Part shown: positions 10,571 to 25,428 of the stretch, piece after piece | Layout: the number at the start of each line of letters is the position of its first letter | How positions within the stretch are numbered: the stretch's first letter is position 1 | Source: a virus | IMG/VR virus record: IMGVR_UViG_3300034152_000332 | Coordinates: 1-25,428 of that record | Reading direction: 5' to 3' (one strand) | DNA: 25,428 nt | Notes under the pieces: model-generated | Database searches by the model: none | Told to the model about the DNA's origin: nothing | Seen by the model: only the letters and a program-made list of their open reading frames with translations | Program-made: the position numbers and the translations under genes

Positions 10571-11563
10571 TTACTGGCTCTCGATGCGAACGGCCCCGAT
10601 GTCCTTCTGGTCGAACTTCAGCGTGTAATTCGAGGTATTTTTCAGAGCGGCTGAAGTATAGGACTGCGGGTCGCTGCCTTCCGAATAGGAAACGCCGTGC
10701 AGGCACATGACGAAATCGAGGCGCGGGATGACGATGTCATATCCGCCGTCGATCAGGGATTCGCGATCGTATTCGATGGTCAGCATGCGCTGGTAGAACA
10801 GGCCCATGGCCTTCTCGCTAAGCAGGTACGTCGGATACAGCGTCGGAGACGAACCTGATGCGGCGATCGCATCGGTGACGATCAGAATCATGCCGGCAAC
10901 GGTGGGAACCAGGTTCTGGCCCTGGGCAGCGCCCAGCTGGTTGACCTGCGTACCGTACAGCGGCAGGACCTGCGACATTGGCTGAAAAGAAATGGCGCCA
11001 GCGACTTCCAGGTCCTTCTGTACCTTGGAGGTGCAAAGCATGAACTTCAGCTTCACGTGCTTGTCACCGAGCTTGTAACGAGCGGCCCGGACGTCGGAGG
11101 CCTCCAAGGTGCCGTCGGTGGCGTCTTGCCGGTTCGCGGTGGGGATAGCCCCTTCAATCACATCAAACCGGCGGGCCAACATATACTCGGCAACTTTACC
11201 GGCAATGTTGTCCGCGTATTCGTTCGTGATCTTGTCGGTGATCTCGTCGGTCAGGTTACGCCGCGGGCTGTACTTGGCCACCATCTCGTCGATGTCGGGC
11301 ACTTTGTACGCCTGGCCGGCACGCTGGACGACCATCTTATAGCGGCCCTGAGAAAGGCCCTGGGGCGTAAGGGTCACCCCTTCACCGTCACGGACCAGAT
11401 CCTGAAGCGCGCCTGTGGTGGGGATTTCCCACGAGGTACCAGGGGTACCGACCGCGAATTCGGACGTGGTGTCCAGGCCGGGAACATTCGGCAGCAGGTT
11501 CGGAAGGCGAAGGTGAACCAGTGCTCCGAGTACTTCCGGGTTAATAATATTTGCAATACTCAT
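10571..11563 (-). CDS. Major capsid protein
   Basis: A 330-residue protein directly after a scaffold-like gene, with a strong ribosome site (GGGAGGG) before ATG 11563. The sequence has the long opening helix and extended arm, then the pattern of coat proteins with the HK97 fold: TSWEIPTTGALQDLVRDGEG around residues 43-62, NEYADNIAGKVAEYMLARRFD near 113-133, and an immunoglobulin-like or beta-rich end (YTLKFDQKDIGAVRIESQ). It is highly ordered, Gly/Ala-rich and free of low-complexity sequence, as expected for the most abundant virion protein. A dedicated promoter lies upstream of the scaffold-capsid pair. The HK97 fold is inferred from context and size. Confidence 0.85.
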   Translation of the reverse strand: MSIANIINPEVLGALVHLRLPNLLPNVPGLDTTSEFAVGTPGTSWEIPTTGALQDLVRDGEGVTLTPQGLSQGRYKMVVQRAGQAYKVPDIDEMVAKYSPRRNLTDEITDKITNEYADNIAGKVAEYMLARRFDVIEGAIPTANRQDATDGTLEASDVRAARYKLGDKHVKLKFMLCTSKVQKDLEVAGAISFQPMSQVLPLYGTQVNQLGAAQGQNLVPTVAGMILIVTDAIAASGSSPTLYPTYLLSEKAMGLFYQRMLTIEYDRESLIDGGYDIVIPRLDFVMCLHGVSYSEGSDPQSYTSAALKNTSNYTLKFDQKDIGAVRIESQ

Positions 11564-11590
11564 AAAATTTCCCTCCCAAGGAAATGACTT

Positions 11591-12280
11591 TTACCCGCCG
11601 TGTACAATTCGATCGTATTCGGCCGGGTTTTCGTCTTTCAGCTTTTGCAGCTTCATTGGGCTTTTCAGGATTTCTTCACGAGTCGTCACGTCAGGCGGTC
11701 GCGGCCGGCTGCTATCGGTACCCACCGGCTTCTGGCCGAAAAGATACGGTTTATCCGTCTTGAGCTTTTCGACCGCTTCCTTGACGCCCATCACCTTGCC
11801 GTCCTGGACCGTAATGGTTTCCAGGTCGATCAGGGCTTCAGCATCGCGGACATCGGCGATTCCCTGCGCTTTGGCTTCCAGACCCAGCTCGTAGACCTTC
11901 CGGTCCCGTTCTCTTGTCTTTTTAGAGTCATCCAACTCAGTTTGAAGCTTTTCAGCGCGGTCCTTTTCCTTCTGATACAGGTTCTCGAATTCCTTCTGGT
12001 TTTCAAGTTTCTGACGCTCCTGCTCCTGCTGCTGCGCCTCCAGGTCACGGGCTTTTTTTTTGGCTTCGTCCCGCTGTTTCACTACTTCCTGGAATTCGTC
12101 AGCAGCGTAAGTCCTTCCCTCTGGCGGCTGCTGTGGTTGCTGCGGCTGTGAACCGCCCGTACCTCCATCACCCGTCCGGGTGTCAGGAGAACCGCCATCC
12201 GGCGGAGCACTGGCGCCACCATCCAACGCGCCGTTGTCGGGGCTGAACTTTCGTATCAGCCGCTTTAAAAATTTACGCAT
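11591..12280 (-). CDS. Scaffolding protein
   Basis: A 229-residue protein translated from ATG 12280; longer upstream frames run through the terminator and are not credible. GGAGGAG and AAAGGA precede the start. The N-terminus is a basic helix (MRKFLKRLIRKF), then a Gly/Pro/Gln-rich linker (residues ~14-55). Residues ~60-130 are a charged coiled coil (DEFQEVVKQRDEAKKKARDL), and the later GKVMGVKEAVEKLKTDKPYL and PMKLQKLKDENPAEYDRI blocks match the typical ending of siphovirus scaffolds. The protein is expected to guide assembly of the capsid encoded immediately downstream and then leave. It is the first gene after the second regulatory gap. Confidence 0.85.
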   Translation of the reverse strand: MRKFLKRLIRKFSPDNGALDGGASAPPDGGSPDTRTGDGGTGGSQPQQPQQPPEGRTYAADEFQEVVKQRDEAKKKARDLEAQQQEQERQKLENQKEFENLYQKEKDRAEKLQTELDDSKKTRERDRKVYELGLEAKAQGIADVRDAEALIDLETITVQDGKVMGVKEAVEKLKTDKPYLFGQKPVGTDSSRPRPPDVTTREEILKSPMKLQKLKDENPAEYDRIVHGG

Positions 12281-12311
12281 TTTTCCTTTACTCCTCCTCG
12301 TGTTGGAGCAC

Positions 12312-12370
12312 AAAAAAAAGGCCCAGATAAAAAACACCGTTCGGGAACGATGCTTCCTGCCTGGGCCTTT
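12312..12370 (-). terminator. Nested intrinsic terminators upstream of the scaffold gene
   Basis: Outer hairpin: AAAGGCCCAG (12370-12361) pairs perfectly with CTGGGCCTTT (12326-12317) and is followed by more T. Inner hairpin: CATCGTT (12352-12346) and AACGGTG (12341-12335) close a CCCG loop and are followed by TTTTTT (12334-12329), so a second complete terminator lies inside the loop of the first. Both point into the scaffold-capsid genes and end about 30 bases before the scaffold start. Transcripts starting at the promoter 12424-12451 must pass both. Confidence 0.8.
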
Positions 12371-12398
12371 GTGTGAAGGTACTCCGGGTCAGTAAAAA
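12366..12398 (-). promoter_or_regulatory. Conserved leader motif, copy B (ACTGA / CGGAGTA / CACACA hairpin)
   Basis: Minus strand order: TTTTT, ACTGA (12393-12389), CGGAGTA (12386-12380), then a 4-bp hairpin CCTT-CACACA-AAGG (12379-12366) and CCC. A second copy occurs at 24079-24118 with the same boxes and loop but a different, still complementary stem (CTCG/CGAG). The 3' arm AAGG is also part of the outer terminator stem, so the small hairpin and the full terminator cannot both form. I know no named RNA family with this sequence. Confidence 0.65.
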
Positions 12399-12423
12399 TT
12401 TAAATAAGAACTGTTATACTTAA

Positions 12424-12451
12424 AATATATTTAATCCGTGATAAATGTCAA
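12424..12451 (-). promoter_or_regulatory. Sigma70-like promoter for scaffold and capsid genes
   Basis: A perfect -35 box TTGACA (12451-12446) is followed after 16 bases by TATATT (12429-12424); a TATTTT alternative with 18-base spacing overlaps it. It lies immediately after the stop of the upstream head gene (12458) in the AT-rich part of a ~180-base gap. Transcription would begin near 12417, about 25 bases before the conserved leader motif. It would give extra expression to the scaffold, capsid and tail genes. Confidence 0.65.
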
Positions 12452-12457
12452 TACTCC

Positions 12458-12892
12458 TTAAAGCTTCCGCTGCAGCTCTTCCTCCACCCACTGATCGATG
12501 ATTTTGTCAATCTCCCGCTCATCGGTCCGGGAGAAACCCATGAAATCCCGCAGCCGGTTCGGGTTTTTCGTGTCGATGTGATACCCCGCGATCCGGGCGG
12601 CCTCGCCGGTCAAGCCAATTTCCATCATCGTAGCGGTCCGCCGGATTACCCGGAGGGATTGCATCATGCGGCCGGTGACGGTCAGGTTCACCTTGCTGGA
12701 TAGCTGGTTTTTCTGCCGGCGCCGCAAGTACTTCCTGCTGTACGGTTTGAATGGCCGCTCGTCGGCGTCGACGCTCATTTCCTGAGTCCGCCGGCGGATG
12801 GCTGCGATCTGGTACGAAGCGATCCGGGAGAGAAGGACCTCGGGATCTCGTAGGTCCCCATTTTTAAAATCGTGCGAGATTACGAGCTTCAT
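12458..12892 (-). CDS. Virion morphogenesis-type minor head/tail protein
   Basis: A 144-residue protein. The start is taken at ATG 12892, which overlaps the upstream stop (ATGA) and follows an AGAGG sequence; an in-frame upstream start would extend it within the MuF gene and is less likely. The content is basic and helical: IASYQIAAIRRRTQEMSVD, then KPYSRKYLRRRQKN and VNLTVTGRMMQSLRVI. The Arg-rich block followed by a TGRMMQSL motif and a Gly-containing region with YHIDTKNPNRLRDFMGFS is the pattern of Mu gpG-like virion morphogenesis proteins, which normally follow MuF genes. It is the last gene before the internal promoter. Confidence 0.7.
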   Translation of the reverse strand: MKLVISHDFKNGDLRDPEVLLSRIASYQIAAIRRRTQEMSVDADERPFKPYSRKYLRRRQKNQLSSKVNLTVTGRMMQSLRVIRRTATMMEIGLTGEAARIAGYHIDTKNPNRLRDFMGFSRTDEREIDKIIDQWVEEELQRKL

Positions 12893-13683
12893 GCCTCTTT
12901 CTTCCCCTTGAAACCAGGCGGTACCGCGATCCACCCGTGCCGGCAGTTGTAACCACCGCCGTCGGTAAAGACGTTACCGGTCTGGCCGTTGTCCAGTTTC
13001 AGAATCTCTGATTTGGTGAGGACCTGGAAGACGTGCACCGTGCAGAACGGCCGCGTCTTGCCGTCGCTCGGCCCGGCGTAGTAATAATGGTCCCACCCGG
13101 TCTTTTCGGCCACCACATTATTCACGGTACGGTTAAAACGCATTATGGCGTCATTGGCATAGGTGTAGGCGTATTTTTCCAGCCTGGTACCGTCCAAGGC
13201 GTTTCGGATTTCGTCCACGGTTTCCGAAAAACTCAGTTCCGTCAACGTGTTACGGTACAGACCCTTGTAAACCGAGTCCATGGCCTCGTCGGCCAGCTGG
13301 TAGAAAAAATCCAGATCGAACTGCTGCAACTGGATAATAGATTCCCGGGTCACGTCGTCGAATTTCAGCTTGTAGTCGAAAATCCCGTACTGCTTCTTGA
13401 TGTTGTCGATGATCTCCTTGTACCCGTTCAGATAATCGCCCACGGCGTCATAATACCCGCTGTCCACGAAAATCTGATTCAGGTTGTTTTTGGCTTCTAG
13501 GGCGAATTCGATGTTGACCTTTTTCGTCTTCCCGGTGGCCACGTAATCATCCAGGAGCCGGATCAAATCCCGCTCGATGTCGTCATAAAGGCCCTCCAGG
13601 CGCTTTAGAAAAGCGGCCTGGTGGTTGTCTACGATTCGGATCCCGTTGCGGTGGACCCGCTCGAGCTCATCAAGCTTCCCCAC
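12889..13683 (-). CDS. MuF / SPP1 gp7-like minor head protein
   Basis: A 264-residue protein beginning at GTG 13683 with GAGGGAG upstream, overlapping the portal gene by 14 bases. Residues ~150-258 carry the MuF-type head morphogenesis domain: YAYTYANDAIMRFNRTVNNV, YAGPSDGKTRPFC (202-214) and GGGYNCRHGW (242-251), with the conserved Cys and His positions. The N-terminal half is helical. Such proteins enter the capsid with or near the portal and may be ejected with DNA. Gene order portal-MuF-morphogenesis matches SPP1-like and Mu-like head modules. There is no C-terminal toxin extension, which some MuF proteins have. Confidence 0.85.
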   Translation of the reverse strand: MGKLDELERVHRNGIRIVDNHQAAFLKRLEGLYDDIERDLIRLLDDYVATGKTKKVNIEFALEAKNNLNQIFVDSGYYDAVGDYLNGYKEIIDNIKKQYGIFDYKLKFDDVTRESIIQLQQFDLDFFYQLADEAMDSVYKGLYRNTLTELSFSETVDEIRNALDGTRLEKYAYTYANDAIMRFNRTVNNVVAEKTGWDHYYYAGPSDGKTRPFCTVHVFQVLTKSEILKLDNGQTGNVFTDGGGYNCRHGWIAVPPGFKGKKEA

Positions 13684-15097
13684 TCAGCGCTCCCTCGAGG
13701 TCGGCCCTGGCCTGCTCGACCCGGCCGTTCTGCTGCTGAAAGAACTGCTTGTTTTCTTCGTATTTTTTTCTAGCCTCTTTCTCGGTCAATCCGTATTTTT
13801 CCATCATGTAATCGATCGGTGTTGACATATTATTCGTAAACTCCCATGTTTTCTTTTTAACCTGTTCTTCCACGGTTTCTTCGATTTGCATGGGAGTAAA
13901 ATCGATAGAGAACTTCTTGGGATCCATTTTCTTTTTCGGATATGCTGCGTTATTGACGATTGCCACCTTTTTGTACAGTTCCGCCTCATAATCCCGATAG
14001 AACTTGATCTGCTGGTTGCGGCGCTCAATCAACGGCTCCTTTTTCACTTTGATCGAATATCCACTGGCCGCGTCGCCGGTCCGCTTGAACTGCTCGAGGG
14101 CCAGGCCCTCTTGATTCAGGGCGCGCTCAATCTTGCTGTCCACGACTTTGTTGAAGGCGTCCAGATTCGCCTGCAGATCGAGGGTGCCGATTTCAATATC
14201 GGTACCAACAATCTGGAACAACTCGGCCGGATCCAAGATTTGTTCTTTCGATTTCTCAAGATCGTAGTTACCGGTGACATAAATCTGCTTGAAAGACTGC
14301 CATTTGCAGTAGTAGTTGAAAAGGGTGCTAAGGACGGAAACCTGCTTCTGGGCCGAAAACATCTTATTCCCGGCCGTAGAGTTCCAGATCGAGTTTTCAT
14401 TCATCTCCTTGTGGAAAAACACGATCGGCAGAATATACTCGCCCTTTTCGTCCATGTAGGGATTGACGCCTTCCTTGTTGTCGGGATCCTTGATGATCCC
14501 GAAATTCTTATCGAAGCGGAAATGCTTCCCATCCTTTCCCCAGTAAACAAAATACCGATCGTCAGCCGATGCCTGCGTCACCGGTGAAGTCTGGGTGTCG
14601 ACGAAGTTCACTTCGTAGATGATCGCCCAAGCTTTGGTCGGATCCTTTTTATCCTGGACGACCGTCAGCACGTCAGGCGCCACCACATCGAGCTCGATTG
14701 AATCGTTCCGCGGCATGATGAGAACGCAGGATTCATTGCAGCAGTTCGAGATCTTATTGGCCTTGTCCAACTTCAGGTTGTACTGGGCATGCTTCACGAT
14801 TTCGTCGAAGCGCTCCTGACTGCCGTCGGCGACGGTCCTTTTCGGGTCCATGAAATAGACCTTACTGACCTCATTCACGATAAACTCGACAATATTGATC
14901 GAGTCGTCGATCTGCAGCTTCAGGGCGTTATAGTTTTCCTTGACGAACAGGTTCTTGAGTTCCTGCTGAATGTAATTCCCGAAATTGTCGTCATAGAAAT
15001 ACATGCGCTCTTCGATTGCCTGCTTCCGTTCGACTTCCGCCGTATCCTTGTATTTTGCAAGGATTTCATCCAGAAAGAGTTGAGTAAATTCGGGCAT
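13670..15097 (-). CDS. Portal protein, SPP1 gp6 type
   Basis: A 475-residue protein with an excellent ribosome site (GGGAGGG) before ATG 15097. The N-terminal helix-rich wing contains QIDDSINIVEFIVNEVSKVY and MDPKRTVADGSQERF, a central region has QKQVSVLSTLFNYYCKWQ and QEGLALEQFKRTGDAASGYS (clip-stem region ~340-360), and the long charged C-terminal helices (MEKYGLTEKEARKKYEENK) end in a Gln/Glu-rich tail. This is the pattern of SPP1-type portals, which form the dodecameric DNA gate at the capsid vertex. It follows the large terminase by 10 bases and overlaps the MuF gene. Confidence 0.9.
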   Translation of the reverse strand: MPEFTQLFLDEILAKYKDTAEVERKQAIEERMYFYDDNFGNYIQQELKNLFVKENYNALKLQIDDSINIVEFIVNEVSKVYFMDPKRTVADGSQERFDEIVKHAQYNLKLDKANKISNCCNESCVLIMPRNDSIELDVVAPDVLTVVQDKKDPTKAWAIIYEVNFVDTQTSPVTQASADDRYFVYWGKDGKHFRFDKNFGIIKDPDNKEGVNPYMDEKGEYILPIVFFHKEMNENSIWNSTAGNKMFSAQKQVSVLSTLFNYYCKWQSFKQIYVTGNYDLEKSKEQILDPAELFQIVGTDIEIGTLDLQANLDAFNKVVDSKIERALNQEGLALEQFKRTGDAASGYSIKVKKEPLIERRNQQIKFYRDYEAELYKKVAIVNNAAYPKKKMDPKKFSIDFTPMQIEETVEEQVKKKTWEFTNNMSTPIDYMMEKYGLTEKEARKKYEENKQFFQQQNGRVEQARADLEGALSGEA

Positions 15098-16580: not shown

Positions 16581-17178
16581 TGTCCTTCCCGATGATGCCC
16601 AAAATCTCTTGCTGCAGGTTGCGGATTTTCATGAGCTGCCCCCGGCTCAGGCCGGAAAGGTCCGGGCCCTGCGTCGGCGTGACATCCTTGATATTTTCGG
16701 TAAACATGGCCTTCACTTTCCCGAGCATTTCCAGAGCCTTGTCTTTGCTGTGCATGCGAAAACGGATGATTCTGTTCCCTGTCCGCATATTGTAGGTCTC
16801 AGATACGTCCTGAATGACCGACGTGTCGAGATCCTTCATACTCCTGATTCTTATGCCTTCCGGTCCGATATCGACATAATCCCCGATATCAGAGAATGCA
16901 AGCTTCATCATTTCGCAAATGATTTGCAGCTCAGTGGCCTCAATTTTGCCAGCTAGGGCCTCTACCTCCCGGTTTACCGCGGCCCTGATCTCAACGTCCG
17001 CCAAAAGCCGCGTCGCTGCCTGCCGGGAGGTTTTCTTGCTGTATCCGCAGGCCTCCGCCGCCCGGGCGCCGTTGAACATGCATTCCACATACTTCTTGGG
17101 AAAAAGCTTCTGCCGGTGGGCGGCCGTGATCTTCGGCTTCGCCGCTTTCTTTTTGGCTGATTTTTTCTTAGCTGTCAT
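16561..17178 (-). CDS. terS: Terminase small subunit
   Basis: A 205-residue DNA-recognition subunit of the packaging motor. Start is set at ATG 17178, which overlaps the sulfotransferase stop (ATGA); a TTG two codons upstream is possible. A Lys-rich leader (KKKSAKKKAAK) precedes a helix-turn-helix typical of small terminases (residues ~20-70: FNGARAAEACGYSKKTSRQA, AATRLLADVEIRAAV). The middle holds a mixed alpha/beta region with FSDIGDYVDIGPEGI, and the C-terminal helices (RGQLMKIRNLQQEIL) probably bind the large subunit. It directly follows the sugar cassette, which means the cassette and packaging genes are on one transcript. Confidence 0.9.
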   Translation of the reverse strand: MTAKKKSAKKKAAKPKITAAHRQKLFPKKYVECMFNGARAAEACGYSKKTSRQAATRLLADVEIRAAVNREVEALAGKIEATELQIICEMMKLAFSDIGDYVDIGPEGIRIRSMKDLDTSVIQDVSETYNMRTGNRIIRFRMHSKDKALEMLGKVKAMFTENIKDVTPTQGPDLSGLSRGQLMKIRNLQQEILGIIGKDNDETNS

Positions 17179-17756
17179 GCCCAATAGCCAAAAATCTGAA
17201 AATCTTGTCTGTAATATTCAAATACTGCACTCATTGTCTTTGTGTCATAGTATTCCTGGTAATTCTTGTGTGGTGTCTTGTTTAAATGCATCAACTTTAG
17301 ATCACGATTTATGAGTACCCCGAGTAATTCTATATCCGTTGCCAGATCTTCAAAACGCCCCACGAAATCGACGATCTTGGCTGACTTCATATGGCTCAGG
17401 TAAAACGACTGCGGTCGCAGGGTCATTTCATGCTTCATTAGCTGGAAATAATCAAAAAAGGACATTTTTTTCAGGTCTGGGTGTCGGCTCGCGTATATCC
17501 CCTGATAATCCTCGGAGGTGTGATAGGCGTAACTGCTGACCAGGCGATCGTATGGGTTCCGGACAAAGAGGATGGAAAAATAAGTCTCCCAGGTTTCAGC
17601 GTCGCACAGCAACGAGGGTACGTGGTGCAGAGTAGATCCTGTAATGCCCAGTGCCGCAGCGATCGAATTCCCGGCCGCTTTGGGATTGTGCAGAAAAATG
17701 ATCTTCCGATCATGAATGATGTTCGGTGCGTCTTTCATGCTTTCATCTTCACCCAT
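17175..17756 (-). CDS. Carbohydrate sulfotransferase-like protein
   Basis: A 193-residue PAPS-dependent sulfotransferase, by motif. The phosphosulfate-binding loop is FLHNPKAAGNS (21-31; family pattern HxPKxAGxS) and the 3'-phosphate-binding motif is FVRNPYDRLVSSY (64-76). Later FVGRFEDLATDIELL and LNKTPHKNYQEYY match the end of the Golgi-type carbohydrate sulfotransferase family, where the NKxPH block is common. It would transfer sulfate from PAPS to a sugar hydroxyl. ATG 17756 has AGGA 6 bases upstream and overlaps the synthase gene by 8 bases; it ends in a 4-base overlap with the small terminase. PAPS must come from the host. The acceptor is unknown; the neighbouring sugar genes suggest a phage-directed glycan. 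Confidence 0.85.
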   Translation of the reverse strand: MGEDESMKDAPNIIHDRKIIFLHNPKAAGNSIAAALGITGSTLHHVPSLLCDAETWETYFSILFVRNPYDRLVSSYAYHTSEDYQGIYASRHPDLKKMSFFDYFQLMKHEMTLRPQSFYLSHMKSAKIVDFVGRFEDLATDIELLGVLINRDLKLMHLNKTPHKNYQEYYDTKTMSAVFEYYRQDFQIFGYWA

Positions 17757-18651
17757 GATGTATCCTGGTATCGGAATGCCTCAGTCCTGTTTCTTCTTTA
17801 AGGTCCGCCCGGAGCTTAATTATGGACGGCCATTCGCTACGCACTATCGTTTTAACGCCATCGCCCATTGCCTGGGAAATTGTTTTTATCGACCGCAGCA
17901 GGGATATAACCTCATGCAGCTCGAGGCTGATGCGGTGATCACCACCCTTCATTTTCCGATCTAGAGTATAATGCCGCTCGATGACCCGGGCCCCCATGGT
18001 GTATGCGGCTAGGTCCGGGACAAAGCCGCGCCAGTGGCCGCTGATACCGTCAAAATTGCATTCAGTCATCACCCGCAGGTTAATGTCCTGAGCATCGCAG
18101 GGATAGGCACTGGTACACTGCAGGACGAAGGTTTCGCAGTTCTTTAGGATGGAAAATGCCATTCCCACGTCAAAAAGCCTTGACATACCGGTGGATAGGA
18201 AAATCGTCGGCGGAGGGATCCGGGTGGCATTGACGCAGGCCACGTATTCCAGAAGCTTGATATCCGTCACCCGCTGGCTGGCGATTTTCAGATATTTGAC
18301 GCCGATCTGAGTCAGGAAATCGAAACTTGGCCGATCGGTGAAGCTCGATATGAAATCAAAGCCCTTTTCCTCGGCGTACTCCTTCAACTCCGTGAGATCA
18401 GATTTTGACAGCTCAAGGGCTTTGCGGTGTTCGTAATACGTCTCACCGAAGGAGTTAGGGCCGGGATACGGTGCTTTTTTCTGGTTCTCGGTTAGGCACA
18501 CGTCAATATCGCGCTTCGCCGTTTTGATGGCCGAAACGCCAGTACCGACCAGACTGTCCACCATTTCCTTGGCAATCGAAAGTCTCCCCTGGTGGTTCTG
18601 ACCGATCTCAGCGATGAAGTAGATGTCAGGATTGATTCGCTTTAAGTTCAC
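17749..18651 (-). CDS. NeuB-family sialic/nonulosonic acid synthase, SAF domain missing
   Basis: A 300-residue enzyme that would condense phosphoenolpyruvate with an N-acyl-mannosamine or related sugar (or its 6-phosphate). Family motifs: FIAEIGQNHQG (12-22), the substrate-loop block PYPGPNSFGETYYEHR (61-76), LQCTSAYP (177-184), SGH with His206, ERHYTLD with His227, and KGGDH (235-239). His206 and His227 are 21 residues apart, as are the two metal-binding histidines of meningococcal NeuB. The PY..SFGETYYEH block resembles animal and Bacteroides 9-phosphate synthases more than classical NeuB (by memory). The protein ends before the antifreeze-like SAF domain that normally closes the neighbouring active site. 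GTG 18651 has AGGA upstream and lies 26 bases inside the CMP-transferase gene. Confidence 0.88.
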   Translation of the reverse strand: MNLKRINPDIYFIAEIGQNHQGRLSIAKEMVDSLVGTGVSAIKTAKRDIDVCLTENQKKAPYPGPNSFGETYYEHRKALELSKSDLTELKEYAEEKGFDFISSFTDRPSFDFLTQIGVKYLKIASQRVTDIKLLEYVACVNATRIPPPTIFLSTGMSRLFDVGMAFSILKNCETFVLQCTSAYPCDAQDINLRVMTECNFDGISGHWRGFVPDLAAYTMGARVIERHYTLDRKMKGGDHRISLELHEVISLLRSIKTISQAMGDGVKTIVRSEWPSIIKLRADLKEETGLRHSDTRIHHG

Positions 18652-19171
18652 TCAGATCCTTCTTGTAATGAATTTCTTTGGCCCGGGAATCAATGGCGCC
18701 GAGATACGTGGATACCTCGTGCTTTCCGATGAGCACTTCTCGCCTAAAGGCCAGCAGGCCGGCCTCATGGCCGTCGTTGTCAAAAGAGCGCACCTCCTTC
18801 TTGCCGTCGATGGTCAGCAGCTTGATGGCGCTGCGGACGTCCTTCACCGTATGGCCCGGGCAATTCGCCATGATCGATACGACGATCTGGCAGGCAGCCG
18901 GCAGAGCCTTGAATGCGTACTTGATGGCATCAAAAATCGGTTCTTCGGGCAGCGCGGCGTTCGCATTGCGGTGGATGACCTTGATATTGTGCAGATCGCA
19001 GTATGCAGTGATTTTCGGCGAATCCGTGGCAACGTAGACCTCGTCTATTAGGTCGCAGCCCTGCAGCGGCCGGACGCTGTGCATGAAAAGCGGCATGTCG
19101 TAGTACAGGGCCAGGTTCTTATTCGGGAAGCGCTTCGACTCCCCCTTGGCGCAGACGATTCCGACCTTCAA
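18626..19171 (-). CDS. Acylneuraminate cytidylyltransferase-like (CMP-sugar synthetase)
   Basis: A 181-residue nucleotidyltransferase that would activate a nonulosonic acid or similar sugar with CTP. The CTP-binding N-terminus CAKGESKRFPNKNL (7-20) matches the family pattern ARxGSKRxPxKN, and VYVATDSPKI (45-54) matches the VSTDS motif. It is shorter than the usual ~220-230 residues, mainly in the C-terminal dimerisation and sugar-binding half, so specificity is open; a CMP-KDO synthetase-like role is the alternative. The start is TTG 19171, overlapping the phosphatase stop (TTGA), with GGAGGG 8 bases upstream. It sits directly before the synthase gene. Confidence 0.85.
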   Translation of the reverse strand: MKVGIVCAKGESKRFPNKNLALYYDMPLFMHSVRPLQGCDLIDEVYVATDSPKITAYCDLHNIKVIHRNANAALPEEPIFDAIKYAFKALPAACQIVVSIMANCPGHTVKDVRSAIKLLTIDGKKEVRSFDNDGHEAGLLAFRREVLIGKHEVSTYLGAIDSRAKEIHYKKDLSELKANQS

Positions 19172-19470
19172 AGCCCGGCCCTCCGAAAGAAGTCCTGGAA
19201 CGATCCCGCATCATTGTCAATGTAGAAGCAGGCCGGCGGCTTGCCGTAGACAATGTGGTCGTATGGTATCCTCAATTTTTTGAGTCTCCTTTCTGTAACT
19301 TCGGCTTGGAGAAAATGCCGACCCGTATAAAGCACAACAACATAACCCGCCTTGCGAATCTTCCGCAGCGCCTTCTGCGCCCCCGGGCGCAGCTTGCTTT
19401 TTGAGTAATCCGCGATTTTTTTAAAGATGGTATTGTCGATGTCGACCGACACGATCTGCGCCGGCTTCAC
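19168..19470 (-). CDS. Small capless HAD-family phosphatase
   Basis: A 100-residue protein starting at GTG 19470, chosen because GGAGG lies 5 bases upstream and GTGA overlaps the glycosyltransferase stop; a longer in-frame extension would run through the glycosyltransferase coding region and is rejected. HAD motifs: VDIDNTIF (DxD, residues 8-15), VVLYTGR (motif II Thr), the YGKPP Lys and YIDND (motif IV). No cap domain is present. Next to a synthase resembling the 9-phosphate type, it could remove the phosphate of a nonulosonate 9-phosphate, as NANP does in animals and HAD enzymes do in Bacteroides. Its homology at this level does not fix a substrate. Confidence 0.82.
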   Translation of the reverse strand: MKPAQIVSVDIDNTIFKKIADYSKSKLRPGAQKALRKIRKAGYVVVLYTGRHFLQAEVTERRLKKLRIPYDHIVYGKPPACFYIDNDAGSFQDFFRRAGL

Positions 19471-20720
19471 GATCGCCTCCCATTGAGCAGAACCGGATCC
19501 TTCACTGGGTGCAGTGCATAGGTCCGCTGCTCGTATCCTTTTCTGACATCTGTTCGCGACAGGCTGGCGCCGCGGATAAAGCAGAAATACTTCGGATCTA
19601 TATACGGATTCTGCGCCACCCATAATCGGTTGCGCTGCAGCTGGGTGAACATGTCGATCTCATGCCACTTCGGAGTGAAGTTGCGCGAATACCAGGTCAG
19701 GGCATCGTGAGAAAGAACCACGCAACCGAGAATGGACCAAAAGTCTTCGCGGCCATTTATGACGCCTTTCCGTTCATGGCCGGTCCGATAAAAATACTCG
19801 CTGTCGCCGGTGTGAAGGTGCGGTGCCAAAGCATGCAGCTGGTTCAGCCGCATGAAGCGGATGCAGTCGCGTTCAAAATTATGATTGATGATGTAGGCGT
19901 CGTTTTCCATTAGGATGTAATAATCCGCCGGAAAACGGAGGGCCATTGGGAAACAGCGCTTGGCCAGCCAAGGCTTGATATCGGGCATATCGAAATACGT
20001 GACGTCGTCGGTATCAACGCCCTGGCCGTTAAAGAAAATGTGAACATTTGACAGTTTGCGCCGGTGCCAGGACAAAATATGTCCGGGCTCTGTATGGGTA
20101 AATATGGCCGTCTGAACGCGAATAGCGTCCTTTTTAATCTTCCGAACGGGAAAAATCGTCAGGTCTGTACGATCGGCGGCGTGAAAGATGTTGTCACCCC
20201 ATTCAATGTGGTCGAATTCCTTGATCTGCTCTCGCAACCATTGCTCGACTTCGACCTTTTTCTTAGTCAGGGCATAGTCCCGGGAAAAGTGGCCGGAAGG
20301 TCTTTCCTGCTCCCGGTATCGGAAGGAAAATCCGATGAGATAGATCTCGTCGAATTCCATCAGCTGTGCGATGTAAACGGCCCGAACGCCGCAGCGGAAA
20401 GGATTCGACCTGGCCGACCGTGGCGGAAATTTGTGGATCTCAAAATAATAATGACCGATGTCTTTGCCCCACTGGCCTGTGATAATCCTGGTGCGACGCT
20501 GCAGCTTGATTTTCCCTGACCGTATGGCCTCACACTGGATCTTGTCGTAGCAAACGTAGTAATCGAGCCGCGGGGCGTGCTCAGTGCAGTTCACGCCAAA
20601 AATCACCCAGTCAGCCGGGATGATTGAGAAATCGAAATCATCGACGTTTTCACCGTGGCCGACGATCAGGCACTTCCGGCCCTTACCCTTCCCCTGCAGG
20701 GATTCAATCTTCCGCATCAT
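19467..20720 (-). CDS. Two-domain glycosyltransferase (GT42/DUF115-like plus second domain)
   Basis: A 417-residue protein. Residues 1-~195 form a Rossmann-like region: KCLIVGHGENVDDFDFSIIP (17-36), FGVNCTEHAPRLDYYVCYD (41-59), then CGVRAVYIAQLMEFDEIYLI (110-129) and GFSF. The VGxGxS-like start and the SGV..A..A...GY..IYLCG.DF-like later block recall the GT42 sialyltransferase and DUF115 folds; PSGHFSRDY (141-149) lies where CST-type sialyltransferases have their catalytic His. Residues ~200-417 are a second domain (AIFTHTEPGHILSWHRRKLS; YYILMENDAYIINH with an acidic END triplet) that looks like a GT-A-type transferase. A fused transferase would fit attachment of the sugar made by the neighbours, but neither activity is proven. 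Confidence 0.6.
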   Translation of the reverse strand: MMRKIESLQGKGKGRKCLIVGHGENVDDFDFSIIPADWVIFGVNCTEHAPRLDYYVCYDKIQCEAIRSGKIKLQRRTRIITGQWGKDIGHYYFEIHKFPPRSARSNPFRCGVRAVYIAQLMEFDEIYLIGFSFRYREQERPSGHFSRDYALTKKKVEVEQWLREQIKEFDHIEWGDNIFHAADRTDLTIFPVRKIKKDAIRVQTAIFTHTEPGHILSWHRRKLSNVHIFFNGQGVDTDDVTYFDMPDIKPWLAKRCFPMALRFPADYYILMENDAYIINHNFERDCIRFMRLNQLHALAPHLHTGDSEYFYRTGHERKGVINGREDFWSILGCVVLSHDALTWYSRNFTPKWHEIDMFTQLQRNRLWVAQNPYIDPKYFCFIRGASLSRTDVRKGYEQRTYALHPVKDPVLLNGRRS

Positions 20721-21697
20721 ACGTCGTTGATTCCCCGCATGACCTGGGCGATAACCTGATCCATGTCTAGGTACTTGTATGTCCCAAGGCGGCCAAGAAA
20801 AATGGTGTTGCGCTCCTGGCGCGCGAGCTTCCGGTATCGGTTGAACCGGGAAATGTTTACCGGATCCGGAAACGGGTAAAATGGGATGTCGTCCTTCTTG
20901 GCGTCGCGCGGATACTCCCGGCCGAGAAGAACGCTTTTCAGCTTGCGCTTATAAAAATGGCTGCAATCGAACCGCCGGGTGGCGCCGGTCTCGGAGTTGC
21001 ACTCATTCACGACGCCGGCCGGCAGCGGAGCCCCGCGGGTGAAGAGAATGTCGCTGGTCCGATATTTCAAAGCCCCGTACTTGAAATTGAAATATTCGTC
21101 GATCTTTCCGGTGTAGATTGTCAGGTCCGCGCGGCCGGCCTGCCAATCCTTGGGATGAGAGTCGGGGATAATATTGATTTTCCGGGCCATCCGCTCAAAA
21201 AGCCGGTGGAATCCTTTCGAGGGGATCCCCTGGTAGCGATCGAGAAAGTAGCGGCAGTCCTTGCCGGCACGCCAGACCTTAACGCGGCCGATAATTTCCG
21301 TGGGGATCTTGTCAAAAGGAACCCCCCACTGCTTCTGGGAATACGGGACGAAAAGCAGCTTCAGGATCTCGTTGTCCGAAAGCATGCCGACAATCCCCTG
21401 GGAGATGTCGTTGAAAGGGATCGGAATCGTGACGCCGTTGCCGATATGGGCCAGGACCTTGTGCCGGTACCGGTTAAAAGCAGAGAATCGCCGGATAAAT
21501 TTCCAAATTGCGTTGCTGCGCGTGTGGAAAATGTGCGCCCCGTATAGCTGAATGATGTTGTCACCGGTGTCGATATCGTAGCAGTTCCCGCCGATGTGCG
21601 TCCGCGTCTCGTAGACGGTGCACAGGTGGCCGCGATCGGTTAGGAGCCGGGCCGCCGTCAGGCCGGCCAGGCCGGCGCCAACAATTCGGATTCTCAT
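20717..21697 (-). CDS. glf: UDP-galactopyranose mutase
   Basis: A 326-residue flavoenzyme that interconverts UDP-galactopyranose and UDP-galactofuranose, the donor for galactofuranose-containing glycans. The FAD-binding start is VGAGLAGLTAARLL (6-19), followed by HIGGNCYD (34-41), YGAHIFHT (52-59), IPIPFN (91-96), PYSQKQWGVP (118-127) and RYQGIPSKGF (154-163). YTGKIDEYF (195-203), ALKYRT and the C-terminal GRLGTYKYLDMDQVI (302-316) with its conserved Arg and Tyr are all present, so the enzyme is likely active. It is somewhat shorter than the usual 360-390. ATG 21697 overlaps the LamG gene stop (ATGA) and its end overlaps the glycosyltransferase start (ATGATG). Confidence 0.95.
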   Translation of the reverse strand: MRIRIVGAGLAGLTAARLLTDRGHLCTVYETRTHIGGNCYDIDTGDNIIQLYGAHIFHTRSNAIWKFIRRFSAFNRYRHKVLAHIGNGVTIPIPFNDISQGIVGMLSDNEILKLLFVPYSQKQWGVPFDKIPTEIIGRVKVWRAGKDCRYFLDRYQGIPSKGFHRLFERMARKINIIPDSHPKDWQAGRADLTIYTGKIDEYFNFKYGALKYRTSDILFTRGAPLPAGVVNECNSETGATRRFDCSHFYKRKLKSVLLGREYPRDAKKDDIPFYPFPDPVNISRFNRYRKLARQERNTIFLGRLGTYKYLDMDQVIAQVMRGINDV

Positions 21698-23383: not shown

Positions 23384-23574
23384 CAGAAGATCCACCCGAG
23401 GACCGCAATGATGAGAAGCACGACGGAAATGGTGACGACCACGTAAAAGCGGATTTCATACCGGCGCGCGGCATCCGTCAGAGACTGACGGTACTGCTGA
23501 AAATCGTCGTCCGCCAGCTTTGCGATCTGGCGCTTGTATTCCTTGCGGATTTTTCTGGGCTGTCTATTCGGCAC
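23383..23574 (-). CDS. Small one-pass membrane protein, possible holin or spanin part
   Basis: A 63-residue protein beginning at GTG 23574 with AAGGAGA upstream, overlapping the 3D-domain gene by 11 bases. The first ~40 residues are strongly charged and helical (RKIRKEYKRQIAKLADDD), then a single C-terminal membrane helix (YVVVTISVVLLIIAVLGWIF). Because it directly follows the murein enzyme, a lysis role such as pinholin or spanin-like component is plausible. The C-terminal (tail-anchored) position of the helix is unlike most holins, so this is uncertain. Confidence 0.6.
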   Translation of the reverse strand: MPNRQPRKIRKEYKRQIAKLADDDFQQYRQSLTDAARRYEIRFYVVVTISVVLLIIAVLGWIF

Positions 23575-24034
23575 CGAGTCTCCTTGCGCGCATCCGCTTT
23601 AGGAACCGGGAACGCGACTTTATTTCCACTAATATCTTGATTTTCTGATCGCGCTTCACGCCGAATTTATTCGCGACCTTCAGGGCGGCCTTCTCGGAGG
23701 TGTATATCGGGATGTGAAGATCTAACCGCTTGCCCTTTATCATGCCGCCGCGGTCCAGCGCGAAATACTCCTTCCCCTTGTAGATGATGCAGCTGTACAG
23801 CGGGATCACCCGGGTGTCGACGGCCATGATCCGAAGACCGCGATCGGTGTAGTAGCGCATTTTCCGGCCGGTGGCCACCTTGTCCCCGTACTGCCCATTG
23901 CAGCAGGGGAAAGGGGTATAGGCCGTAACCGTGAAACCCCACATTTCACGATATAGCTTTCGCGGCGGCGATGATTTCGGAGAAAAAAGCATCGCGCATA
24001 GAAGAAGAAATGTCACTGCCACCATCCTTTTCAT
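23564..24034 (-). CDS. 3D-domain murein hydrolase, probable endolysin or lytic transglycosylase
   Basis: A 156-residue protein. Residues 1-~19 (MKRMVAVTFLLLCAMLFSPK) are a signal peptide or anchor, though the Cys at 13 lacks a good lipobox. The 3D fold follows: GFTVTAYTPFPCCNGQYGD (33-51), a GRKM region, IMAVDTRVIPLYSCIIYKG (69-87), FALDRGGMIKGKRLDLHIP (91-109), with the three eponymous aspartates at 73, 94 and 105. 3D-domain enzymes include the MltA catalytic barrel and YuiC-type lytic transglycosylases, which cut peptidoglycan. Start ATG 24034 lies only 3 bases after the terminator T-run and lacks a ribosome site; internal ATG 24025 or GTG 24016 are alternatives. It is the first gene of the late block. 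Confidence 0.82.
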   Translation of the reverse strand: MKRMVAVTFLLLCAMLFSPKSSPPRKLYREMWGFTVTAYTPFPCCNGQYGDKVATGRKMRYYTDRGLRIMAVDTRVIPLYSCIIYKGKEYFALDRGGMIKGKRLDLHIPIYTSEKAALKVANKFGVKRDQKIKILVEIKSRSRFLKRMRARRLGAE

Positions 24035-24037
24035 AAC

Positions 24038-24077
24038 AAAAAAGCCGCTACCAATCGCCTGTTGCGACTGATAACGG
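24038..24077 (-). terminator. Strong intrinsic terminator abutting the first late gene
   Basis: On the minus strand CCGTTATCAGTCGC (24077-24064) pairs over 14 positions with GCGATTGGTAGCGG (24058-24045), using a few G-T pairs, around loop AACAG, then C and TTTTTT (24043-24038). It stands after the conserved leader motif and only 3 bases before the ATG of the 3D-domain gene. It would stop transcripts entering the lysis, sugar, packaging and structural genes unless read-through is promoted. Confidence 0.85.
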
Positions 24078-24078
24078 G

Positions 24079-24118
24079 CTCGTGTGTGCGAGTACTCCGC
24101 AGCTCAGTAAAAAAAAAA
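24079..24118 (-). promoter_or_regulatory. Conserved leader motif, copy A (ACTGA / CGGAGTA / CACACA hairpin)
   Basis: Minus strand order: a T10 run (24118-24109), ACTGA (24108-24104), CGGAGTA (24099-24093), a 4-bp hairpin CTCG-CACACA-CGAG (24092-24079), then CCC. Copy B at 12366-12398 keeps ACTGA, CGGAGTA and the CACACA loop while both stem arms change to CCTT/AAGG, so pairing is preserved. The spacer between the two boxes differs by 2 bases. The terminator begins one base after the hairpin. No other copy was found in the window by eye. Confidence 0.65.
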
Positions 24119-24138: not shown

Positions 24139-24306
24139 TTAACAGTTAAATTCAGTTATGTGCAGCTTTGTCCGACCTCCTGCGCTGACGTTGATCTCGA
24201 TCTTGATATTCGCGCAATTGCAGTAAAAAGAGCTCAATTTACCGGCAGATGCCTTTATCTCGCCGATAATCTCACTTCTCAATATTTTACCGTTTTTGAT
24301 GTCCAT
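24139..24306 (-). CDS. Possible small protein gene, perhaps a broken ORF
   Basis: The ~350-base gap before the 3D gene holds a 55-codon ORF from ATG 24306 to TAA 24139-24141 (MDIKNGKILRSEIIGEIKAS at the start; IKIEINVSAGGRTKLHITEF near the end), with an amphipathic strand-helix pattern that looks real. No ribosome site precedes the ATG at proper spacing. The same frame continues upstream through FKEYVAFD to an in-frame TAA and then ATG 24351 (MKTLIE), so a 70-codon gene interrupted by one nonsense codon is also possible. No function is recognised. Confidence 0.4.
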   Translation of the reverse strand: MDIKNGKILRSEIIGEIKASAGKLSSFYCNCANIKIEINVSAGGRTKLHITEFNC

Positions 24307-24311: not shown

Positions 24312-24384
24312 ATGCTACATATTCCTTGAATTATTCAATAAGGGTTTTCATGGGGGATTCCCCGACTAGGGATAATACATTTTA

Positions 24385-24948
24385 TCAAAATTGTATCTCC
24401 GCGTCAAGAATTTTTTTTGTTTCCTGTTTGTAGTATGCAGCTATATCCTTTAAATCCTGATTCGTAATTTTTGATCCGCCGTTGCTATCAAGAACGAGTT
24501 TGTCATATGCCGCCTGCCCGTTTTCGTCGATCCATTTCTGCGTATATCGCTCGGGCTGGTATTCATGAAGTTGATTGCACCCGGCGCACTGGGCGCGGCC
24601 ATTGCGTTCGTCCCAGCGAACAGCGTATTTTGAACGGGTGATAAGGTGCCCACACTGTATGACGTGCGTTGCGTTTGTGGCTCCGCAAGTATAGCACCGG
24701 AAGTGATCGCGGGTCCGGATAAAGAGGCTGAATGCCTTGTCGGCTTTTTCGACAAGCCGCTGCCGCTCCGTTTTTGGTTTGTTTCGGAACTCGCCAAGTT
24801 CCTCAATTTCTTTTCGCTTTTGCTCAATAAATTCGCGTTTGCATTTATCCGAGCATTCGGCTTGCATTGACAGCCATGGCGTGAAGCGTTCGCCACAGAC
24901 ACGGCATTTTTTCGTCGGCATCTTTCGGTCGGGCCGGGGTACTCTCAT
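24385..24948 (-). CDS. ninG: NinG-like recombination nuclease (Rap family)
   Basis: A 187-residue protein. Residues ~13-36 carry a zinc-ribbon (KKCRVCGERFTPW, then MQAECSDKCK). Residues ~35-75 are a basic helix (RKEIEELGEF, RQRLVEKADKAF). The second half is an HNH-type domain: FRCYTCGATNATHVIQCGHL (83-102), CGHLITRSKYAVRWDERNGR and CAGCNQLHEYQPERYTQKWI. This order of N-terminal CxxC, basic linker, CxxCG then GH and CxxCN matches the lambda NinG/Rap family, Holliday-junction-type nucleases used in phage recombination. ATG 24948 overlaps the micro-ORF stop (ATGA); ATG 24921 is an alternative start. It is the last gene before the late-operon regulatory gap, as in lambda ninR. Confidence 0.85.
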   Translation of the reverse strand: MRVPRPDRKMPTKKCRVCGERFTPWLSMQAECSDKCKREFIEQKRKEIEELGEFRNKPKTERQRLVEKADKAFSLFIRTRDHFRCYTCGATNATHVIQCGHLITRSKYAVRWDERNGRAQCAGCNQLHEYQPERYTQKWIDENGQAAYDKLVLDSNGGSKITNQDLKDIAAYYKQETKKILDAEIQF

Positions 24949-25022
24949 TCGATATACGGCTGTTTATTATCGCATTCCCAGTATGCGTTTTTATCCTTAT
25001 TGAATTTATCGCGCCAGTTCAT
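24945..25022 (-). CDS. 25-residue micro-ORF coupled to its neighbours
   Basis: ATG 25022 overlaps the stop of the upstream 73-residue gene (ATGA) and is preceded by GGAGG at 5-base spacing; its own TGA overlaps the NinG ATG (ATGA). The peptide ([20 protein letters not shown] and a further PYIE) is charged and aromatic, with no family recognised. Coupling at both ends with a full ribosome site suggests it is translated, at least to deliver ribosomes to the nuclease gene. Confidence 0.5.
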   Translation of the reverse strand: MNWRDKFNKDKNAYWECDNKQPYIE

Positions 25023-25042
25023 TCGTCCTCCGGTGGTGTGGG
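25019..25042 (-). repeat. Duplicated gene junction, copy 1 (copy 2 at 25237-25260)
   Basis: A 24-base sequence is present at 25019-25042 and 25237-25260 with one mismatch. In each copy it encodes the end of one protein (PPEDE), the ribosome site GGAGG and the ATGA stop-start of the next gene. The duplication thus carries a complete translation-coupling junction. Confidence 0.85.
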
Positions 25043-25240
25043 GTGAAGATATTCGGTTTCATACGTCCGCTTTCGAGGGTCACGGTATCCGTGAATTTTG
25101 CACCGTTGCTCGGGAAGCAAAATAGACGGTGACGCTTTCGGCAAAAGGCGCACACATTCGGGACAGGGAACGCCGAATTTTTTCCGCTTTTCTTTTCGCG
25201 CTTCTCTAATCTCTCTACACATATCTCCGTATTCGCTCAT
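25019..25240 (-). CDS. Small Cys/His phage protein, zinc-ribbon-like
   Basis: A 73-residue protein from ATG 25240, which overlaps the pentapeptide gene stop (ATGA) and has GGAGG 5 bases upstream. A basic helix ([15 protein letters not shown], ~9-23) precedes [20 protein letters not shown] (26-45) and [14 protein letters not shown] (46-59), giving a CxxC...C..H zinc site. This [15 protein letters not shown] pattern is seen in small uncharacterised phage proteins (by memory). It ends in PTPPEDE, identical to the end of the upstream pentapeptide protein because the gene junction DNA is duplicated. Confidence 0.65.
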
Positions 25241-25428
25241 TCGTCCTCCGGTGGGGTGGGTTCAAATTTAATCCTTACGCTTTTGCCCCTGTAGGTTATG
25301 ATGGCGTTGTTAAGATTCGCATCACATAACACGGCCCCGCGCAAGTCGGCCCAGCGCAAGTTGGCCCCGCGCAAGTTGGCCCCGCTCAAGTTGGCCCCGC
25401 TCAAGTTGGCCCCGCTCAAGTTGGCCCC
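25237..25428 (-). CDS. Pentapeptide-repeat protein, N-terminus outside window
   Basis: The frame is open to the right edge, so the start is missing. The visible ~63 residues contain at least 8 pentapeptide units of the A(N/D)LxG type ([30 protein letters not shown]), which build a right-handed quadrilateral beta-helix. The protein then leaves the repeat ([15 protein letters not shown]) and ends in PTPPEDE. In phages such proteins are often of unknown role; DNA mimicry against gyrase is known for some family members but cannot be claimed here. The DNA repeats are almost identical, indicating recent expansion. Confidence 0.85.
25333..25428 (-). repeat. 15-bp tandem repeats in the pentapeptide gene
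   Basis: Six consecutive units of the plus-strand type GGCCCCGCTCAAGTT plus 6 bases at the right edge. The three units nearest the edge are identical; older units differ by one or two bases (GCGC for GCTC, CAGTC-type changes). Each unit encodes one pentapeptide, and the near identity suggests slippage-driven expansion that may continue beyond the window. Confidence 0.9.

Follow-up and report, generated by a model that had tools for sequence, protein, structure and literature searches.

A short leader element occurs twice in the virus record analysed here (the window, 25,428 nucleotides, its genes almost wholly on the minus strand), each time directly before a predicted intrinsic terminator and a major block of late genes. 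There is good evidence, short of a proven structure and drawn from two sequences of one genome, that this two-copy element is real, and judging from the sequence it probably serves the late (lysis and capsid) genes as a common on/off switch. The explanation towards which we lean, at slightly better than even chances, is that a cis-acting leader RNA sets terminator read-through of both late operons via a common factor. That it represents a new class of phage antitermination RNA, gating two late blocks through a hexaloop hairpin plus ACUGA and GGAGUA read by a phage factor or by polymerase, is a more tentative proposal, which we consider possible but doubtful.

Results

Gene order around the two leaders

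Read from its high end, the window encodes pentapeptide repeats, small ORFs, NinG and a possible 55-aa ORF, after which comes the leader containing copy 1 (Table 1). This leader is followed by a 3D-domain peptidase-like gene, a small membrane protein, a small protein of unknown function and a laminin-G-like protein, then by a sugar/sialic-acid-type cassette, TerS, TerL, a portal-like gene, a MuF-like gene (these two labels being based on position and weak matches) and a neck protein. The leader containing copy 2 comes next and precedes the scaffold, the major head protein and the tail genes, including the tape measure. The preliminary description had placed a major gene block right after each copy, and this is what we find: the 3D-domain gene and the packaging block follow copy 1, the scaffold and major capsid genes copy 2. 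The 3D-domain protein is, by its sequence matches, peptidase-like and a lysis candidate. Its N-terminus resembles a signal peptide, and its ATG lies a few bases past the terminator T-run with no clear ribosome-binding site (window 24034-24045).

The sugar-modification cassette (17175-21697) lies within the late gene order, with lysis-like genes on one side and the terminase on the other. It contains a sulfotransferase, a NeuB-type synthase, a cytidylyltransferase, a HAD-like gene, a UDP-galactopyranose mutase and a large gene with weak sialyltransferase similarity. Two adjacent small ORFs have near-identical 29-nt 3' ends (25019-25047 and 25237-25265, 90%), both of which encode a C-terminal PTPPEDE tail.

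Table 1. Leader elements, predicted signals and flanking genes, in window positions; parts of the element are given in minus-strand order.
Feature	Position	Strand	Description and basis
NinG/Rap-like endonuclease gene, 5' of copy 1	24385..24948	-	Pfam PF05766 1.1e-17; phrog_5034 3.2e-26
Promoter-like TTGACG-17-TAAAAT with TG, about 270 nt 5' of copy 1	24379..24407	-	Consensus scan
Second promoter-like site 5' of copy 1	24311-24284	-	Consensus scan
Possible 55-aa ORF between NinG and copy 1	24139..24306	-	No convincing relatives
Copy 1 of the element	24079..24118	-	T10 24118-24109, ACTGA 24108-24104, GCTG, CGGAGTA 24099-24093, stem CTCG 24092-24089, loop CACACA 24088-24083, stem CGAG 24082-24079, then C and the terminator stem; direct reading, pattern and model searches
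First bases past copy 1 mini-stem, CCC of common GCCC	24076..24078	-	Alignment; overlaps terminator 5' arm
Copy 1 intrinsic terminator (predicted)	24038..24077	-	14-bp stem 24077-24045, AACAG loop, C-TTTTTT to 24038
3D-domain protein, first gene 3' of copy 1	23564..24034	-	PF06725 1.5e-6; phrog_2307 2e-13
Promoter-like TTGACA-16-TATATT, just 5' of copy 2	12424..12451	-	Consensus scan, 11/12
Copy 2 of the element	12366..12398	-	T5 12398-12394, ACTGA 12393-12389, CC, CGGAGTA 12386-12380, stem CCTT 12379-12376, loop CACACA 12375-12370, stem AAGG 12369-12366, which doubles as start of the long terminator; direct reading, pattern and model searches
Copy 2 long nested terminator (predicted)	12312..12370	-	Outer arms AAGGCCCAG/CTGGGCCTT and T8 12319-12312
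Head scaffolding protein, first gene 3' of copy 2	11591..12280	-	PF06810 3.7e-17
Major head protein, second gene 3' of copy 2	10571..11563	-	phrog_247 3.4e-25

A repeated element with a covarying mini-hairpin

The letters and coordinates originally given for both copies proved exact on direct reading. Eighteen key bases are identical between the copies, and alignment of the two leaders gives the T-run, ACTGA, CGGAGTAC, CACACA and GCCC as the letters that they have in common. GCCC, which lies 3' of the mini-stem in both copies, was absent from the preliminary list. Between ACTGA and CGGAGTA, copy 1 has a linker of 4 nt and copy 2 one of 2 nt.

The strict pattern has only two matches in the window, each lying between genes on the coding strand; its reversed control pattern has none, and the expected number of ACTGA-N4-CGGAGTA-N4-CACACA in shuffles is 0.00. 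A covariance model built from both copies scored 58 and 53 bits on them and 13 bits on the next best match; the copies being the training set, only the gap to the next match is informative. The third-best model match (21448-21480) was dismissed as lying inside a coding gene. The score of the leader-to-leader alignment was reached by 5 of 20,000 dinucleotide shuffles (26 of 20,000 with the T-runs masked), and each leader is the other's best match in the genome, copy 2's own palindrome aside. As had been claimed, the mini-hairpin covaries: all four pairs of the mini-stem are Watson-Crick in each copy, while three of them differ between the copies, changed on both sides. With random flanks such pairing would arise by chance at a rate of about (1/4)^8 = 1.5e-5, a figure that has two sequences as its basis.

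Terminators and promoter-like sites

A scan for hairpins followed by T-runs returned many weak sites within genes and two strong intergenic sites on the coding strand. Both of the latter start at the 3' end of the element, in agreement with the original proposal that an intrinsic terminator adjoins or overlaps each copy, and the element is carried by these two terminators and by no others. The copy 1 leader folds with z = -4.4, the copy 2 terminator with z = -5.0 and an MFE of about -32 kcal/mol. Within the latter lies an inner hairpin (CATCGTT/AACGGTG) followed by T6, and the whole (12312-12370) resembles two terminators in one, an inner T6 hairpin within an outer T8 stem. The two terminators have little mutual similarity, while the element is conserved.

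All promoter-like sites are consensus matches only, and those near copy 1 are about as frequent in shuffles. The distance from promoter-like site to element varies about tenfold, from about 20 nt at copy 2 to about 180-270 nt at copy 1, whereas the distance from element to terminator is nearly constant across the copies.

An extended hairpin that may exclude the terminator

In folding of the growing transcript, both copies passed through an intermediate that pairs CGGAG to the common GCCC, A and UA being bulged, and whose outer pairs join ACUGA to CAG inside the terminator 5' arm; this extended hairpin is later displaced by the completed terminator. The outer pairs do not exceed chance expectation when compared with shuffled tails (P = 0.18 and 0.26), and the shuffle z-scores of the extended hairpin are modest (-1.5 and -0.7). 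By itself, the mini-stem of copy 1 does not disrupt the terminator stem in the folding, and in copy 2 the inner T6 hairpin would survive the extended hairpin. These models make an antiterminator/terminator switch via the extended hairpin possible, a feature that the preliminary description had overlooked, and such a hairpin would explain the common GCCC. Another candidate, a first hairpin UACU/AGUA of only 4 bp, was rejected: it is invariant, so that it cannot be confirmed, and has a low probability in copy 1.

Search for relatives

No Rfam covariance model matched either leader up to E = 5, and the element is as unfamiliar as had been supposed. The patterns used gave no further copy over INPHARED, IMG/VR and GTDB contigs; among the matches listed from the exact and gapped IMG/VR searches and from the GTDB contigs, none combines a T-run with a pairable stem and a terminator, and they look like chance, and blastn of each leader against phages returned chance-level matches only. 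No relatives were obtained in searches with the capsid and portal proteins or with TerL as a single sequence. An alignment search with TerL yielded 80 loci (28-45% identity). Beyond TerL these have almost nothing in common with the window; they contain no match to the element model, and the best of them has no intergenic leader before the scaffold. The whole records of four TerL relatives and six bacterial genomes contained no copy, a result that is uninformative.

The portal-like and major head genes (10571-15097) have no relatives, or only relatives of ~24% identity, in 50,697 phage records, which indicates that the phage belongs to a poorly sampled lineage. Near relatives of the window were found in none of the collections. 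The preliminary description had looked to related phages for further copies; since no close relative of this phage was found in the collections, the absence of such copies is uninformative on conservation and does not refute the element, known from two copies on one 25-kb fragment of one genome.

Discussion

In the mechanism that we favour, transcription of both leaders would by default stop at the terminators and yield short RNAs. A late factor, either a phage protein encoded elsewhere or a host factor, would bind conserved unpaired bases, namely ACUGA, GGAGUA and the CACACA loop, as presented by the mini-hairpin; being common to both copies, it would switch the lysis/packaging block and the scaffold/capsid/tail block together. 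Its action could be local, the RNA being held in the extended hairpin that occupies the terminator 5' arm, or processive, the factor loading onto polymerase. We infer the transcription of the element, its effect on termination, the factor and the choice between these modes. An RNA is preferred to a DNA operator because the 2-nt difference in linker length is better tolerated by RNA, and regulation at the terminator is favoured because the distance to the terminator is nearly fixed and that to the promoter is not. Copy 1 lies after NinG and before a lysis-like gene, the very place where the late gate is located in lambdoid phages. No antiterminator gene was recognised in the window.

The local and processive modes both fall within this explanation, and each has its difficulties. 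In a local antiterminator (RAT- or ANTAR-like), a bound protein would stabilise an alternative hairpin at the expense of the terminator. The ability of the element to pair with the terminator 5' arm lets this mode compete seriously with a processive element, even if on its own it seems to us doubtful. It is suggested by the CGGAG/GCCC and ACUGA/CAG intermediates that folding predicts for both copies inside the terminator 5' arm, it accounts for the otherwise unexplained GCCC, and a hairpin with a 6-nt loop directly before the terminator is also found in ANTAR leaders (PMC3369931). However, the outer pairs of the extended hairpin are not significant, the inner terminator hairpin of copy 2 escapes exclusion, and the loop departs from the ANTAR rule (A1, G4). 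A processive antitermination site (nut- or put-like), at which RNA with or without a phage protein would modify polymerase such that later terminators are ignored too, seems to us rather unlikely. The arrangement of conserved linear bases and then a hairpin whose loop is invariant is indeed nut-like, and since mini-stem and terminator can coexist in copy 1, such a site would not need to block the terminator by pairing. The copies lie ~20 and ~180-270 nt from promoter-like sites, which compares with the spacing in HK022, where one of the two put RNAs stands directly after its promoter and ~270 nt separate the second from the other promoter, which lies upstream (PMC9378689). Yet the conserved part spans about 35 nt with one supported stem of 4 bp, against about 70 nt, two long stem-loops and a triplex in put RNA (PMC9378689), and boxA, boxB and an N-like protein were not recognised at both sites. 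Moreover, no further terminator downstream was found to need read-through, and if copy 1 took effect over 12 kb, the capsid block would have no use for an element of its own.

A duplicated terminator cassette, or a hairpin for RNA processing or stability without a regulatory role, would also place both copies against terminators and leave only two of them. We consider it unlikely: plain duplication should keep element and terminator alike, but the terminators resemble each other little, and within the element the loop and linear motifs are conserved and the stem is not. In phages, late promoters often take the form of short repeated motifs, and a repeated, intergenic, same-strand element at the head of late blocks could also be a DNA site from which an activator or alternative sigma factor would initiate late transcription, the terminators insulating it from upstream transcripts. 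This reading strikes us as improbable: the two sides of the stem vary in concert, the copies differ by 2 nt in their internal spacing, and a promoter right before a terminator would defeat its own purpose unless antitermination came with it. A T7-type phage promoter was set aside on the same 2-nt difference in spacing. The preliminary description had also suggested a coat-like repressor; a translational operator of this kind is unlikely, copy 2 lying at least ~65 nt upstream of the scaffold ribosome-binding site.

If the favoured mechanism is right, a compact leader RNA joins the short list of phage elements for terminator read-through, the same RNA gating late genes at two points of one genome, and its small size would ease testing and reuse. 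Repeated leaders that combine an element with a terminator may then reveal antitermination systems in uncultured phages without a recognisable N or Q homologue.

Comparison with known systems

Like HK022 put, the element occurs in two copies per genome as a short, putatively cis-acting leader RNA that would gate phage genes from a variable distance to the promoter; unlike put, which serves early operons, it stands next to a terminator and before late genes. Read-through at put is factor-independent and proceeds via the beta' zinc-binding domain. Like lambda nut, the element has a conserved linear box and then a small hairpin, constant in its loop and free to vary in its stem, but nut belongs to early operons and the element to late ones. 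By eye, GTTCTTA 5' of copy 2 is boxA-like and nothing comparable lies 5' of copy 1, the CACACA loop is not the A-rich boxB loop of N-like systems (PMC11893012), and no N-like arginine-rich protein was recognised among the proteins scanned in the window, which is a fragment.

A likeness to the lambda Q/tR' late gate had been put forward, and copy 1, as at lambda Q/qut/tR', follows the NinG gene, has a terminator in its leader and precedes a lysis-like gene. A site of this type fits less well, however: the DNA site of Q is at the promoter, but the element keeps its place relative to the terminator and has its match 12 kb downstream, and a Q-type promoter-bound site is disfavoured because the distance to the (predicted) promoters is variable and that to the terminator nearly fixed.

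In the hexanucleotide loops of ANTAR targets, positions 1 and 4 are A and G (PMC3369931), where CACACA has C and A in both copies; the mini-hairpin does lie, as ANTAR targets do, directly upstream of an intrinsic terminator and overlaps it. The ANTAR antiterminators of the eut, nas and ami leaders are dual hairpins, unlike the element with its one well-supported hairpin. Terminator read-through, proposed here for the element, is also what the LicT/SacY RAT, EAR, canT and conAn leaders permit, but these serve sugar, capsule and conjugation operons, no sequence similarity to them was noted, and canT is larger (452 nt tested; PMC11658703). We file the element as a member of none of these groups; by analogy, it may work like the known leader antiterminators.
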